From positions 496,001 to 560,000 of the forward strand of contig NZ_NPKQ01000001.1 of NCBI RefSeq assembly GCF_008329525.1: a stretch of DNA of 64,000 nt. The letters run 5' to 3'. Source of the DNA: Tardiphaga sp. P9-11 (GTDB lineage: Bacteria; Pseudomonadota; Alphaproteobacteria; Rhizobiales; Xanthobacteraceae). The notes under the pieces were generated by a model. It worked only from the letters and a program-made list of their open reading frames with translations, searched no databases and was not told the DNA's origin. The position numbers and the translations under genes were made by a program. Position 1 is the first letter of the stretch. Each line of letters begins with the position of its first letter. Positions 16,095-21,723 of the stretch are shown piece by piece.

Positions 16095-16910
16095 TTACGC
16101 AGCCGTGGCAGGCATTTCCAGATCGGCCCAGATTTTCGCGAAATAGGCCTGAAAAGCAGCGTCGGTCCGTAGCGCGACGGGATCGCGACCTGCTTTGGGC
16201 AGGTCGATGACATGCAGTGCCCGCACCGTCGCCGGACGTGCGCTGAGCACCAGAACGCGGTCGGCCATCGCAATGGCCTCGCCGATGTCATGGGTGACCA
16301 GAATGGCGCTCTTGCCGTTTTCGGCGATGATGCGTGACACGTCGGCCTGCAGCAGCAATCGGGTCTGGAAGTCCAGTGCCGAGAACGGCTCGTCCAGCAG
16401 GATCACCTGCGGATCGAACGCCAGCGTGCGCATGATCGCGACGCGCTGGCGCATGCCGCCTGACAGCGTTGCCGGCTTGGCATGTTCGAAGCCGGCGAGG
16501 CCATAGGCGCGGATCAATTTCATGGCGATGTCGCGTGAGGTCTGTCGCGGCGCGCCGCGCACCTCCAAGCCGAGCATCACATTGTCGATGACGGAACGCC
16601 ACGGCAGCAGCAGATCCTTCTGAAGCATGTAGCCGACGTGCCCTGCGGCGTCATCGACGCGGATGCCTGCGACCTCGACATGGCCGCGCGTCGGCTTCAG
16701 CAAACCGGCGATGACATTGAACAATGTGGACTTGCCGCAGCCAGATGGGCCGACAATGGCCAGGGTTTCGCCTTGCCGCAATTCAAAACTGACGTCGCGG
16801 ATGGCCTCGACATATTGCTTGCCGGTTCCGAACGATGCGCCGACCTGTTCGGCCCTGAGCACAGCGGATGCGGTCGACGACGATGGTGCAATTGGTGTCA
16901 TGGCGTTCAT
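16095..16910 (-). CDS. ABC importer ATP-binding subunit (nitrate/taurine class)
   Basis: The 271-residue protein powers the importer encoded in the same operon. It has Walker A GPSGCGKST, the signature LSGGMRQR, Walker B VILLDEPFSALD and the switch His in LVTHDIGEA. It resembles SsuB/TauB/NrtD-type ATPases, which serve small nitrogen or sulfur compounds. Its ATG overlaps the rutD stop codon (ATGA), so the two are translationally coupled. An ATG three codons in (16901) is possible. It is the last gene of the operon. Confidence 0.93.
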   Translation of the reverse strand: MNAMTPIAPSSSTASAVLRAEQVGASFGTGKQYVEAIRDVSFELRQGETLAIVGPSGCGKSTLFNVIAGLLKPTRGHVEVAGIRVDDAAGHVGYMLQKDLLLPWRSVIDNVMLGLEVRGAPRQTSRDIAMKLIRAYGLAGFEHAKPATLSGGMRQRVAIMRTLAFDPQVILLDEPFSALDFQTRLLLQADVSRIIAENGKSAILVTHDIGEAIAMADRVLVLSARPATVRALHVIDLPKAGRDPVALRTDAAFQAYFAKIWADLEMPATAA

Positions 16911-17707
16911 GCGTCAACCTCGCTGCAGAAGCCGAGCAGCATGTCATTGAAAACATCGGGGGTTACGGCGGTGAAGGCATGGGCGCCCCATTCTACTTCG
17001 CGTACGCGCGCGCCAGGAATGGCGGCGGCGAGTTGTCGCGTGAGATAGGCCGGTACCAGGCTGTCGTCTCGCGACGAGGCGAGCAGTGTGGGCGTAGCAA
17101 TGGTCGCGAGAGCGTCGCCGGGGTCGAAGGCGAGAAACATGTCGATGCGCGCATTCATCGTCGCCGCTGCCGGGAAGTGCGCGAGGATGCGCTCTTCTTC
17201 CGCGTCGAGCCGCGCGGCGTTGTCGGAAATCCATTGTGGCGGATAGAGAAACAGCGGCTGTGCCCGCACATAGGCTTTCGGACCAGACTGATTCAGTATC
17301 TGTTTGCGGACCTCAAAGCAGCGCCGCAGGAACGGATCGGCCCGGCCCCAGCCGTTCACCACCACCAGGCTGCGCAGGCGCGCGGGATCGCGCAGGGCAA
17401 GTTCAATTCCGACGATGCCGCCGATGGCATGGCCCACCACATGCGCATTTTCGATGCCGGCGTGGTCGAGCACATGCGTGATGTCATCGGCCATGCCGGC
17501 GATCGATCGCGATGGCGCAGTGTTATCGGCACTACGGCCGGTGCCGACGTGATCGTAGAGGATGACCTGGTGACGCTGCGCGAGTGCTGCGACCTGTGGC
17601 GTCCAGAACGACCCGCTGCCGCCCATGCCGGCAGACATGAGGATCGCCGTACCGTGTCCATGGGTTTCGTAATAGATATCGGCGTTGCCGCCGCTTGCAT
17701 AAGGCAT
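16907..17707 (-). CDS. rutD: RutD-type aminoacrylate hydrolase (alpha/beta hydrolase)
   Basis: RutD speeds conversion of aminoacrylate to malonic semialdehyde in the uracil-degrading Rut pathway. The 266-residue protein matches E. coli RutD as I recall it in several blocks: MGGSGSFW, VVGHAIGG, VNGWGRADPF.RRCFEVR and AQPLFLYP. At the nucleophile elbow the residue is Ala94 (GHAIG) rather than Ser, and E. coli RutD also has Ala there (GHALG). This supports RutD over a generic esterase. It sits between the permease and ATPase genes, overlapping the latter by 4 bp. Confidence 0.85.
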   Translation of the reverse strand: MPYASGGNADIYYETHGHGTAILMSAGMGGSGSFWTPQVAALAQRHQVILYDHVGTGRSADNTAPSRSIAGMADDITHVLDHAGIENAHVVGHAIGGIVGIELALRDPARLRSLVVVNGWGRADPFLRRCFEVRKQILNQSGPKAYVRAQPLFLYPPQWISDNAARLDAEEERILAHFPAAATMNARIDMFLAFDPGDALATIATPTLLASSRDDSLVPAYLTRQLAAAIPGARVREVEWGAHAFTAVTPDVFNDMLLGFCSEVDA

Positions 17708-17737
17708 GACTGGTCTTGCAGGTTCGAGCGATGGAAA

Positions 17738-18550
17738 TCAGAAGCGGAGGCGCCGTTCGATCACGTCGATCGCGCCGTACATCAGCAGTGCTACCGCCAT
17801 GAGCGCAGCGATGCCGACCCAGACGGCATTCAGATCGTAGAGCACGCCGGCGTAGTAGATCATGTAGCCGAGGCCCTCTTTCGAGGCGATGTACTCGCCG
17901 ACCACTGCGCCGATCAGCGCGAAGCCGACATTGAGACGGAAGGCGGACACGATCCACGGCATGGCGCCAGGAATGACAACAGTGCGCCAGGTCTTCCATC
18001 GGCTGGCGCCGAGCGAGCGCATCAACTTGATCAGGTCGCTATCGACTTCCTTGGCGCCCTGCTGCGCGGTGATGACTGCGACGATGAAGGTGATGATGGC
18101 GGCGATGGCGATCTTAGACGAGATGCCGATTCCGAACCACACGATGATCAAGGGCGCGAGTGCGATCTTCGGCAGGCCGTTGAGCGCGATGAGATAGGGG
18201 CGCAGCACGGCTGCGCTGGTTGGAAATAGCCAGAGCAGCAGGCCAGCCGCACTGCCAGCGATAGTGCCGATCAGGAATCCGGCGATGGCTTCCCAGGCAG
18301 TCAATGCGGAGTCGCGCAGGAGTTCGCCGTTGGCGATCAGGATGGAAGCTTTGGCGAAGATGCCGCTGGGACGCCCATAGAGATAGACGGCGATCCATTT
18401 GAAGTGGATCGCAATTTCCCAGGCTGCAAGTAACAGAGCTAGCAGTGCCACTTGCAGCAGCGCGATCCGCAGGACCGGCGGCATCAGCCGCCGTTCGACA
18501 TTGGCCTGGGTGGCTTCGATAGCCGTCACATCAAGCTCGCTTATGTGCAA
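17738..18550 (-). CDS. ABC importer permease (nitrate/taurine class)
   Basis: The 270-residue inner-membrane protein has about six hydrophobic segments. It carries the cytoplasmic EAA-type loop [20 protein letters not shown] that contacts the ATPase. It belongs to the SsuC/TauC-like BPD_transp_1 group and has one copy in the operon, so a homodimer is expected. Its ATG at 18550 lies inside rutC and overlaps its end by 20 bp, implying tight coupling. The substrate cannot be read from the sequence; the flanking rut genes point to a pyrimidine-derived compound. Confidence 0.92.
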
Positions 18551-18917
18551 TCGACGCGATTTCGACGAGACAATCCGGTTTCACCAATCCGCACTGGATG
18601 CAGTAGCGGGCTGGCTTCTCGCCGGGGAAGTATTCGGCATAGACTTTATTGACGGCACCGTAATTGGCCCAGTCGGTCACGAAGATGGAGTTGAAGGTGA
18701 CGTCGGCCATCGTCGCGCCGGCGGCGGTCAGGACACTCTTGATGGTTTCGAGGATGTGCCGGGTCTGCGCAGCCGCGTCGCCGACATGAACGACGTCGTT
18801 GTTCTTGTCGAAGGCCAGCGTGCCGGACACATAGATCACGCCATCGGCCATCATGCCGGGTGAGTAAGGTGCGAGCGGTGGATGAGTGCCGGGCGGAATG
18901 ATCGCGCGATCTGTCAT
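18531..18917 (-). CDS. rutC: RutC, aminoacrylate deaminase (RidA family)
   Basis: The 128-residue protein is a YjgF/YER057c/RidA-fold enzyme. Long stretches agree with E. coli RutC from memory, including [44 protein letters not shown] and [15 protein letters not shown]. RutC was proposed to reduce peroxyaminoacrylate and was later shown to act as a 3-aminoacrylate deaminase. The ATG at 18917 has GAGGA placed over the rutB stop codon, 7 bp away. The frame continues upstream to 19007, but that part lies within rutB. Confidence 0.93.
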
Positions 18918-18924
18918 GGGATCC

Positions 18925-19653
18925 TCAGGCTTTCGTGGATGGTTCGGTCTGCGCGAATGCGCGGCGGAAATCGGCCGTGCTGGAAACCCAGCCGAAGAAG
19001 GTTTCAATGTTGAAGACGGCCGCCTTCTGGACGTAGTCGGGGCCGGCCTGGTGCGTGGCGTCTTCGAGCATCACGCCGAAATATTCGAGATGGAAGCCGT
19101 CGCGCAGGGTCGATTCCACGCAGACATTGGTGGCAACTCCGCAGAACACGAGATTGCGGATGCCGCGCGCGCGCAGGATGCTGTCGAACTGGCTGTTGAA
19201 GAAGCCGCTGTAGCGCGGCTTCGGCACCACGATGTCGCCGGGCTGCGGCTGGAGTTCATCGATCAGCGCATAGTCCCAGCCACCCTTGGCGAGCAGGCTG
19301 CCTTGTAATTCCGGGCGCGCGCGCATGGTTTTGAGGGCGTTCGATTTGTGCCAGTTCGGGGATCCCGGACCGCCGGCCTCGACATAGTCGGCGTCCCAGC
19401 CGTTTTGGAAATAGATCACGGTGACACCGGCCTCGCGCGCGACCTCCAGCGTTTCCTTGACGGCCACGATCGCAGCCTTGGCGCCGGTGACGTCGAAGCC
19501 CGCGAGATCCAGATAGCCGTTCGGCGACGCGTAGGCGTTCTGCATGTCGACGACGATGACTGCGGTCTCCTCGACCGCGAGCCGCAACGGCTCGGGGCGG
19601 GCGGGCAACGTCACATAGCGCCGTTCTGGCGGAAAGCTGGTTGAAACCGACAT
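18925..19653 (-). CDS. rutB: RutB, ureidoacrylate amidohydrolase
   Basis: RutB hydrolyses (Z)-3-ureidoacrylate (or its peroxy form), releasing carbamate and aminoacrylate. The 242-residue isochorismatase-fold protein keeps the catalytic triad Asp36 (VVDMQNA), Lys145 (PKPRYSGFF) and Cys178 ([11 protein letters not shown]), each offset by 12 from the E. coli positions I recall (24, 133, 166). [20 protein letters not shown] and EDATHQAGP are further RutB-specific stretches. Its ATG at 19653 overlaps the stop codon of the binding-protein gene (TGATG). The frame extends to 19773 but the upstream part lies inside that gene. Confidence 0.94.
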
Positions 19654-20666
19654 CACGCCAATCCGAATTCTTTGGTCGCTTTCTCGGCAAAGCGATTGTC
19701 GACCATCTGCGTATAGGGAAGCGTCGTGGAGACGGCGCCGCCGCCCTGTTCGAGCAACATCGCGCGATCCCATTCCTCGGTGGAGATGGTCGGGTTTTTC
19801 GGGATCGCCGTCTTGCTGCCGAAGAAGTTCTTTGTCGCGCTACCGACCACCGACGGTGAGACTTTCGGGAAGTACTTCTCTGCGACCTCGGTGAAGACGG
19901 CATTGTTCTCGTGCATCATCTTCTGCGCCTCGGCGATGGCATTACAGAAGCCCTGCACCGCCTCCGGGTTGGAGGCGATCACGTCTTCGGTGGCCATGGC
20001 TGTGGTGAAACACAGCGGGCCGAGCAGATCGGCGAATGACAGTGACGGCACGAGACCGAACTGTTCGGCGCCGATGCTGATGTCCCATTCGAATGCGGTG
20101 GCGATGTCGGCGCGGCCATCCTTGACGGCTGCGGCCTGGGCGCCCGGCGGCAATTCCAGGAAGGTGACGCCGGCTTCCTTGGGATCGAACTTGCCAACCG
20201 TCTTCATTGCATAGGTCGGGACCTGGATCGTCGAGGACGGGAATTTCAGCGTCGCGATGGTCTTGCCGCGCAGATCATCGATAGTGGTGATCTTGGTGTC
20301 CGGACGGGTCATCCCCCACATCGACACGCCGCCGACGATCTTGGCGATGTTCTTGATCTTGCCGCCTTCGCGCGTGGCATTGACCGACATGCCGGGGCTG
20401 GTGACGCCGATCTGGCCGCGGCCGGACAGGAGGATAGGCACCGGCAGGGCGATGCCGCCGGCAGTCGAGAGATCCGTGTCGAGGCCGTGTTTGGCGAACA
20501 GCCCCTTGTCGGCGGCGACATAGAGCGAGGCATACATGCCGAGCCGGATGGCTTCCGACACCAGAACCTTGCGGCCGGCGGCGAAGGCCGGACCGCCCAG
20601 GCCTGCAAACGGTGCCGTCGCGGCGCCGATGAGCGAATATTTGAGTAGGTTGCGCCTGTCGATCAT
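19653..20666 (-). CDS. ABC importer substrate-binding protein, Tat-type signal
   Basis: The product from the ATG at 20666 is 337 residues. It starts with a twin-arginine signal ([20 protein letters not shown]) and belongs to the NMT1/SsuA/THI5-like periplasmic binding family, as shown by [20 protein letters not shown] and the later [19 protein letters not shown]. It should capture the operon's substrate in the periplasm. It is the first gene of the operon SBP-rutB-rutC-permease-rutD-ATPase. A longer frame starts at 20741, but it adds residues ahead of the signal. Substrate unknown; the rut neighbours suggest a uracil-related ureido compound. Confidence 0.9.
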
Positions 20667-20752
20667 GCCTCTGTCCCTCGCCGCCATTGCCGATGTCAGA
20701 TGGTGTACTGCATAGTTTTTAACCGCAGTATTTCGTCGCATAAAATTGTTGC

Positions 20753-20775
20753 ACTCGTTAATTTCATTAACAAGT
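20753..20775. promoter_or_regulatory. candidate operator 1 in the rut-like/lysR divergent promoter
   Basis: ACTCGTTAAT and ATTAACAAGT form 10-bp arms (9 of 10 paired) around TTC. The site is in an AT-rich stretch between the divergent binding-protein gene and lysR, where a LysR-type regulator would bind. It contains T-N11-A spacings typical of such sites. Confidence 0.55.
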
Positions 20776-20783
20776 CAGGAAAA

Positions 20784-20801
20784 ACAGATATATTTATCTG
20801 T
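20784..20801. promoter_or_regulatory. candidate operator 2 abutting the lysR start
   Basis: ACAGATA-TATT-TATCTGT is a perfect 7-bp inverted repeat ending one base before the ATG at 20803. It could be an autoregulatory site or a hairpin hiding the lysR ribosome binding site; no good Shine-Dalgarno is visible. Confidence 0.5.
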
Positions 20802-20802
20802 A

Positions 20803-21723
20803 ATGCTTATGAATATCGACCTTCGGCAACTCCGTGGCTTCGTCGAGGTGGTTCAGGCTGGTAGCTTCAGCCGGGCCGCGCGGAAACTGGGTGTCTCCCA
20901 GTCTGCGCTCAGCCAGGCCGTTCGCCAGCTTGAGGACGAGTTGCAGGTCCGACTGCTGGACCGGACGACGCGCAGCGTTCAGCTCAGCAAGGTCGGCGTC
21001 GAATTCCTGCCGGGGATCCAGCGCCTGCTGGCCGATCTCGATCACCAGCTTCAGGATTTACGCGATCTGCGCGAGCATCGCCGCGGCCATGTTACGGTGG
21101 CCTGCGTGCCGTCGGTGGCGCTGCGCCTGATGCCGGAAGTGTTGGCGAATTTCCAGCGCGAATATCCCATGGTGAGCGTGACGCTCAAGGAAGTGTCGCG
21201 ACATCAGATCATTGCCGGGCTGCGCAGCGGCGATGCCGAGCTCGGTATTGCCAATGTGCCCGGGGAAGACGCCGATCTCGACGCGACGAAGCTGCTGACC
21301 GACCGTTTTGCGCTGGTGATGCGGCGGGACCACGCGCTGGCGTCACAAAGCGCGGTGAGCTGGATGGACGGTGTGGCCGCAGGCATGGTCGCGATGGCGA
21401 CCGGCACCGGCATCAGGCTTGAAATGGAACGTGGACTGCAGGAACTGGGGCGCAGCAGCCCGCTGCATGAGGCCGAACATCCGGCGACCTTGCTCGCCAT
21501 GGTCGAAGCCGGCGTCGGCGTGGCGCCGCTACCCGGTCTGGCGTTGCCGGCGACGGACCACCCCGTGCTGACCTTCCGCAAGCTGCTGGACCCGGTCATC
21601 GAGCGTGATCTGTATCTGATCCGGCGTGTGGGGCGTGACCTGTCGCCGGCGGGGCGGGCGCTTTACCGCGGCATCCAGCTCGTCGCGCAATCGATCCGGG
21701 AGCGCACCGCCGCCGGATGGTAG
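20803..21723 (+). CDS. LysR-family transcriptional regulator
   Basis: The 306-residue protein has an N-terminal winged helix-turn-helix (LRQLRGFVEVVQAGSFSRAA, then VSQSALSQAVRQLED) and a C-terminal periplasmic-binding-like effector domain (about 90-300). It is divergent from the binding-protein gene and probably controls the rut-like operon, which differs from the TetR-type RutR control known in E. coli. The frame opens at 20746. ATGs at 20803 and 20809 are the likely starts; neither has a strong ribosome binding site. Confidence 0.92.
   Translation: MLMNIDLRQLRGFVEVVQAGSFSRAARKLGVSQSALSQAVRQLEDELQVRLLDRTTRSVQLSKVGVEFLPGIQRLLADLDHQLQDLRDLREHRRGHVTVACVPSVALRLMPEVLANFQREYPMVSVTLKEVSRHQIIAGLRSGDAELGIANVPGEDADLDATKLLTDRFALVMRRDHALASQSAVSWMDGVAAGMVAMATGTGIRLEMERGLQELGRSSPLHEAEHPATLLAMVEAGVGVAPLPGLALPATDHPVLTFRKLLDPVIERDLYLIRRVGRDLSPAGRALYRGIQLVAQSIRERTAAGW

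Follow-up and report, generated by a model that had tools for sequence, protein, structure and literature searches.

In a stretch of 64,000 nucleotides from the soil bacterium Tardiphaga sp. P9-11 (hereafter the window), a single operon unites a three-component ATP-binding cassette (ABC) importer with RutB, RutC and RutD. These three proteins are regarded as the tail of uracil breakdown, acting after RutA, and the operon is a variant of the known Rut pathway that occurs mostly without RutA. We propose that it is self-contained and that it imports and degrades a pyrimidine whose ring has already been opened, with 3-ureidoacrylate, or an N-carbamoyl enamine acid close to it, as the most likely compound. 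We give this reading a probability of about one half; this figure and the weight given to each alternative below concern the type of module found in the window. The source assembly has 6.16 Mb and an estimated completeness of 100%, with the window at C12:496001-560000, and the closest named relatives, judged by the binding protein of the importer, are strains of Tardiphaga robiniae. We found no description of this operon in the open-access literature, a coverage that leaves out subscription papers and preprints.

Gene content of the operon

An initial annotation, made from the letters of the window alone, had described a six-gene operon with a divergent LysR gene, and all seven genes were found where it had placed them. 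The features are as follows.

19653 to 20666, minus strand: substrate-binding protein of the NMT1/THI5 (SsuA/TauA) type, 337 amino acids (Pfam PF09084, 79.7 bits)
18925 to 19653, minus strand: rutB, ureidoacrylate amidohydrolase, 242 amino acids, ATG at 19653 (TIGR03614, 421 bits, cut-off 378)
18531 to 18917, minus strand: rutC, 3-aminoacrylate deaminase of the Rid family, 128 amino acids (TIGR03610, 230 bits, cut-off 169)
17738 to 18550, minus strand: ABC permease, BPD_transp_1, with a TTG start and an alternative ATG at 18484 (PF00528, 104.7 bits)
16907 to 17707, minus strand: rutD, alpha/beta hydrolase (TIGR03611, 303 bits, cut-off 238.5)
16095 to 16910, minus strand: ABC ATPase (PF00005, 116 bits)
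20809 to 21723, plus strand: divergent LysR-type regulator, ATG at 20803 or 20809 (PF00126 and PF03466)
20762 to 20799, minus strand: conserved 38-bp box (gap-free aligned block), a probable LysR operator

The six genes between 16095 and 20666 are transcribed from the minus strand in the order binding protein, rutB, rutC, permease, rutD, ATPase. Most of their starts and stops had been said to overlap, which is not clearly borne out, as overlaps are present at two or three of the five junctions: the genes of the binding protein and RutB share 1 nt and those of RutD and the ATPase 4 nt, the rutC and permease genes overlap only if the TTG at 18550 is the start of the permease, and short gaps separate rutB from rutC and the permease gene from rutD. 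Two starts were moved inward from those of the listed open reading frames, that of the binding protein from 20741 to about 20666 and that of LysR from a TTG at 20746, which would read through the 38-bp box, to 20803 or 20809. Once both are revised, ~140 bp separate the two genes, and the box lies inside this interval. The N-terminus of the binding protein, MIDRRNLLK, resembles a twin-arginine (Tat-type) signal.

The six-gene module is conserved across Alpha- and Betaproteobacteria

A survey of relatives, as the initial annotation had suggested, found the six-gene order to be kept. An orthologous binding protein (at least 53% identity) is present in 13 of 100 genomes of the family, and the six-gene order recurs in all 13. 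A separate scan of named genomes used two peptide patterns of the binding protein, so that loci lacking this protein could not appear, and returned 50 loci. The order is kept on one strand in 49 of them and the remaining one (L098) is cut off by a contig end, which gives 50 complete modules when the window is counted with the 49 named loci. The two counts are not additive since the named genomes partly repeat the family set. The families represented include Nitrobacteraceae, Xanthobacteraceae, Phreatobacteraceae, Hyphomicrobiaceae, Paracoccaceae, Roseobacteraceae and Comamonadaceae, among others.

Adjacency was also counted in 397 genomes of the order, a count that is free of the bias of the binding-protein patterns. 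Eight of these genomes have the binding protein, within 72 bp of RutB in every case; in 10 others RutB is a neighbour of RutA, and the binding protein and RutA never share a locus. RutB exceeds its cut-off in 16 genomes of this sample, being linked to RutA in 10, part of the module in four and alone in two, while four module copies (G345, G346, G353, G362) and seven further RutB-like rows stay below it. These recurrences of order and adjacency led us to reject a chance neighbourhood. Across 50 loci, the pairwise distances of the six operon proteins show correlations of 0.93-0.98, the pattern of genes that are inherited as a unit; a shared history of the species contributes to these values. No relative of the binding protein was detected in the plasmid collection at E ≤ 1e-30.

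We also rejected the presence of a hidden ring-opening enzyme next door. When open frames of at least 110 amino acids around 50 flanked loci were clustered and the 70 largest families were inspected, no further widely shared family appeared; the families shared beyond the six genes were those of regulators, of overlapping or antisense frames and, at some loci, of a second RutD. A flavin adenine dinucleotide (FAD) monooxygenase and a binding protein of the tripartite-transport type (names read from sequence) lie near seven Bradyrhizobium loci only and were judged to be local synteny.

Most genomes with the operon have no RutA

RutA was searched for in 46 of the 50 named operon genomes (all except L086, L090, L100 and L110); the 46 are of unstated completeness and include some metagenome assemblies. 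It exceeds the cut-off in seven and is below it or absent in 39; at E ≤ 1e-40 there is no match in 38, and one more has a match of 171.6 bits. Among the seven RutA-bearing genomes, three belong to the group with a lone rutA described below, one has rutE and rutF close to its rutA, one has a tandem pair of rutA genes with no rutBCD nearby, and two (Variovorax UMC13 and Bradyrhizobium BR 10289) possess a complete rutABCDEF at another site besides the operon, so that in these two the operon is not merely the uracil route. Nine of the 13 family genomes with the operon show no RutA at E ≤ 1e-60, and eight of the nine are at least 91% complete. The share with RutA is larger in the order sample, where it exceeds the cut-off in four of the eight module genomes. 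No rutA adjoins the operon in the 50 flanked named loci or in the eight order genomes with the binding protein. In Pseudooceanicola spongiae (G125), a tandem pair of rutA genes stands in a stretch of 18 kb that contains no rutBCD (L142), and the six-gene module lies elsewhere in the genome (L109).

PreA, which marks the reductive route, was found in seven of 32 operon genomes chosen for the test (over the cut-off in six) and in none of the other 25; both PreA and an over-cut-off RutA are lacking in 19 of the 32. A match to a RutG-type symporter (E ≤ 1e-60) is present in 16 of the 50 operon genomes chosen for that test. The lack of RutA and PreA in most of the tested operon genomes is the strongest support for a substrate that arrives already opened, and we infer that import of an opened ureide accounts most simply for the module overall.

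A lone rutA in the source genome

The initial annotation held that neither rutA nor any other ring-opening enzyme is encoded in the operon, and allowed for a RutA supplied from another locus. The absence stands for the locus, and RutA stays below its cut-off or absent in the 39 genomes mentioned above, but it does not extend to the whole source genome: the search for rutA and rutF that had been proposed there revealed an intact rutA, alone at C12:301536-302594, ~209 kb from the operon (692.8 bits, cut-off 498.3), whose product is 74% identical to E. coli RutA. RutF over the cut-off is absent genome-wide (best match 133 bits vs 254.75). Flavin reductases related to RutF are present, and a general flavin reductase could replace it. 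RutA exceeds the cut-off in five of the six distinct Tardiphaga-type genomes (the source genome itself, G088/G100, G026/G101, G066 and G102) and was not found in the sixth, the metagenome assembly G103; no other rut genes were detected around the lone rutA in five fetched stretches of 18-20 kb each.

The remaining components were searched for in the same genome. No symporter of the RutG/UraA type was detected at E ≤ 1e-60, a level at which the E. coli control is detected and which replaced the cut-off of the RutG model, as no control genome, E. coli included, passes the latter. PreA is likewise missing at E ≤ 1e-60, and no RutB other than the operon copy exceeds the cut-off. The earlier proposal that an importer takes the place of RutG agrees with the missing symporter. 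The proposal that LysR replaces RutR agrees with the locus, where the adjoining regulator, the one that was examined, is a LysR gene at RutR's place.

Together, the intact lone rutA of the Tardiphaga-type genomes, the RutF-related reductases, the single RutB and the missing symporter would suit a split rut regulon, in which the ABC importer takes up uracil or thymine instead of RutG, the lone RutA with a general flavin reductase opens the ring, and the operon's RutB, RutC and RutD complete the degradation. We consider this explanation somewhat unlikely for the module, given the 39 of 46 operon genomes without an over-cut-off RutA and the lack of any adjoining rutA; for the source genome, use of uracil through the lone RutA is also possible.

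The LysR gene and the 38-bp box

The control of the lone rutA bears on the same question. A relative of the divergent LysR (at least 46% identity) is present in 33 of the 50 named loci (L081-L113), and the 38-bp box is kept without gaps in the window and in the 28 of these 33 that were aligned, in 21 distinct versions that score at least 57.7 bits. LysR probably controls the operon through this box. In five lone-rutA stretches, from the source genome and four others, the best scores of the box range from -5.4 to -0.6 bits. On this motif argument we rejected control by the same LysR, and the lone rutA probably lies outside its reach, which again speaks against a split regulon. The initial annotation had named a rutA-rutF pair under the same LysR as the finding that would make the operon part of an ordinary split regulon; half of this was found, namely rutA, without rutF and without the operon's box.

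Enzymes and proposed pathway

RutB, RutC and RutD all exceed their NCBIfam equivalog cut-offs, in line with the family identity first proposed for RutC and RutD. The triad Asp36, Lys145 and Cys178 reported earlier for RutB was confirmed in the 242-residue protein that starts at ATG 19653; it corresponds to D24, K133 and C166 of E. coli RutB, and the two proteins align over 223 residues without gaps (structure 8bkd). Across the module rows the Asp and the Lys are kept in 51 of 51 and the Cys in all 50 that are untruncated. All 51 module copies and seven canonical or lone ones share the residues N72-G73-W74 (E. coli RutB numbering), a stretch that as a whole is absent from all four more distant relatives that align there. 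RutC, for which the best solved relative is E. coli RutC (3v4d), has Arg104 in the window, and this residue is kept in 50 of 50 module copies. The best solved relative of RutD is E. coli RutD (3v48), and both have an alanine at the nucleophile elbow (GHAIG in the window, GHALG in E. coli).

According to one report (PMC8113886), E. coli RutA and RutF give rise to ureidoacrylate, RutB turns this into carbamate and 3-aminoacrylate, RutC deaminates the 3-aminoacrylate, and RutD may accelerate the breakdown of carbamate; the same report describes RutB plus RutC assayed on ureidoacrylate. Thymine gives 2-methylureidoacrylate, as stated in PMC7662398.

For the organism studied here we infer the ligand and each reaction from these precedents. 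The binding protein, permease and ATPase would import 3-ureidoacrylate or an N-carbamoyl enamine acid, for example the 2-methyl form derived from thymine. RutB would cut the imported ureide to carbamate and 3-aminoacrylate, RutC would deaminate the enamine to malonic semialdehyde, and RutD would assist a late hydrolysis, perhaps that of carbamate. The end products would be malonic semialdehyde, ammonia and CO2, with a gain of two ammonia for the cell. The window has RutC, as does each of the 49 loci that extend far enough to include the gene; this constant presence of RutC suggests that the product of RutB should be an enamine and the substrate therefore an unsaturated ureide rather than 3-ureidopropionate. 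The operon would work independently of RutA, and in the source genome and sister species intracellular uracil could also supply it by way of the lone rutA.

Fold of the binding protein and the question of the ligand

Several observations weigh against an opened ureide as the ligand. The main one is the fold of the binding protein. Its predicted model (mean predicted local distance difference test score, pLDDT, of 83.8) is nearest to thiamin-bound 4nmy, 3qsl, Thi5 and the formyl-aminopyrimidine binder 3ix1, followed by SsuA and TauA, with E-values that differ little and identities of 11-22% in the 50 matches listed; a sequence search of solved structures returned only remote binding proteins. 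The modelled fold thus points weakly to a heterocycle ligand, would accommodate a pyrimidine base no less well than ureidoacrylate, and in leaning to thiamin and pyrimidine binders favours uptake of uracil. In 28 orthologues the residues E218-W219-D220 (numbering of the 362-residue frame) are invariant, and the acids E218 and D220 would repel a carboxylate ligand if they line the pocket. The presence of RutA in the source genome together with the lack of a RutG-type symporter is also the pattern expected for a uracil importer. Finally, free ureidoacrylate is not known to form a large pool in soil or in the sea. The remaining objections come from a second type of the operon.

Two operon subtypes and the origin of RutB

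The hydrolase encoded between the permease and the ATPase has the alanine elbow in 33 of the 50 modules (the window group and L109-L113). In the other 17 (L114-L130), which we call type II, all 17 have a serine hydrolase in that slot (GHSTG, with Asp and His kept), and nine encode a second hydrolase of the alanine type, a second RutD, after the ATPase; L115 ends at a contig edge at this point. The split rests on the alignment of the elbow, as the types overlap at the RutD cut-off of 238.5: two of the three serine hydrolases of type II that were scored pass narrowly (249.8 and 240.0) and one fails (217.2). The second hydrolase of L116, the only one scanned, scores 363 on the RutD model. Type II RutB reaches 309-317 bits, below the cut-off of 378, in the six copies scored, one of which (G050) was classed as type II from the way its genes are arranged.

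Both features count against a ureidoacrylate-type substrate, as the serine hydrolase hints at one with an additional bond to cut. They would suit an alternative in which RutB and RutC act on another N-carbamoyl or N-acyl enamine, derived from a different heterocycle, from which the type II serine hydrolase first removes a further group. E. coli RutB and RutC do tolerate other substrates: PMC12553813 describes a gamma-lactamase activity of RutB, and PMC8113886 an action of RutC on several imines. The source genome itself has a second ABC importer cluster (L153:122-9784, C5), in which RutB-like and serine-type RutD-like proteins score 280 and 216 bits (cut-offs 378 and 238.5) and no RutC was detected; it adjoins a xanthine-dehydrogenase-like molybdenum hydroxylase and a relative of EutA/arylmalonate decarboxylase. 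Set against these points, the RutB of the window exceeds the equivalog cut-off, unlike the copy of the second cluster, and its alignment with E. coli RutB is gap-free. We regard a different enamine as improbable for the module of the window.

In the RutB tree the window copy falls in a well-supported clade of 28 (99/99), which joins canonical RutB with modest support (91/54), and the RutB of L109-L113 and of type II lie outside. Either canonical rutB arose among module copies or the window clade took its rutB from a canonical operon, and both origins fit a shared activity.

Comparison with known systems and implications

The operon shares with E. coli rutABCDEFG the RutB, RutC and RutD equivalog families, their catalytic residues and the alanine elbow of RutD. 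It differs in lacking rutA, rutE, rutF and rutG, in the interleaved ABC importer, and in having LysR instead of RutR. Its RutB belongs to the same superfamily as the biuret and triuret hydrolases BiuH and TrtA, which are of the isochorismatase family and act on ureides, and has the same Cys-Asp-Lys triad, the comparison of sequences being made with BiuH; in contrast with their pathways, no decarboxylase or allophanate hydrolase was recognised in the operon. A role of RutB as biuret hydrolase was rejected, since it scores 117.6 bits on the BiuH model NF050097 (cut-off 370) vs 421 on that of RutB.

The importer has the same component types and fold as the importers SsuABC, TauABC and ThiXYZ, which have binding proteins of the NMT1/THI5 type. 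An ordinary taurine, sulfonate or nitrate importer that stands beside rutBCD and shares no substrate with it is highly improbable: although the permease is nearest to the NCBIfam models SsuC/TauC and the ATPase to that of the taurine ATP-binding subunit, all the taurine, sulfonate and nitrate models shown score the ABC parts below cut-off, as does every other importer model shown (those shown for the ATPase being the best 25 of 188), and the genes are interleaved with rutB, rutC and the gene of a RutD-type hydrolase in the constant order described above.

More broadly, we tentatively suggest that RutA-independent, transport-linked scavenging of 3-ureidoacrylate and its methyl form may be widespread in Alpha- and Betaproteobacteria. 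If so, the environment would contain circulating ureidoacrylate, which leaks from neighbours that have RutA or forms non-enzymatically, to an extent worth a dedicated high-affinity importer. At stake is whether nitrogen changes hands in soil and sea in the form of a ring-opened pyrimidine. As rutBCD occurs with a dedicated importer mostly without RutA and often without PreA, automatic labels of 'pyrimidine utilization' may mislead on the diet of bacteria.

Two further arrangements of rut genes were observed. A lone RutB over the cut-off is encoded at L150:9276-9950 and L151:9554-10231 (G338 and G508), with no RutA, RutC or RutD in 19 kb and no RutA at E ≤ 1e-75 genome-wide. In three genomes with no RutB at E ≤ 1e-75, three or four tandem genes of the RutA family, each over the RutA cut-off, lie at G150:C34:29794-34320, G415:C44:540372-543764 and G474:C1:4016028-4019411.

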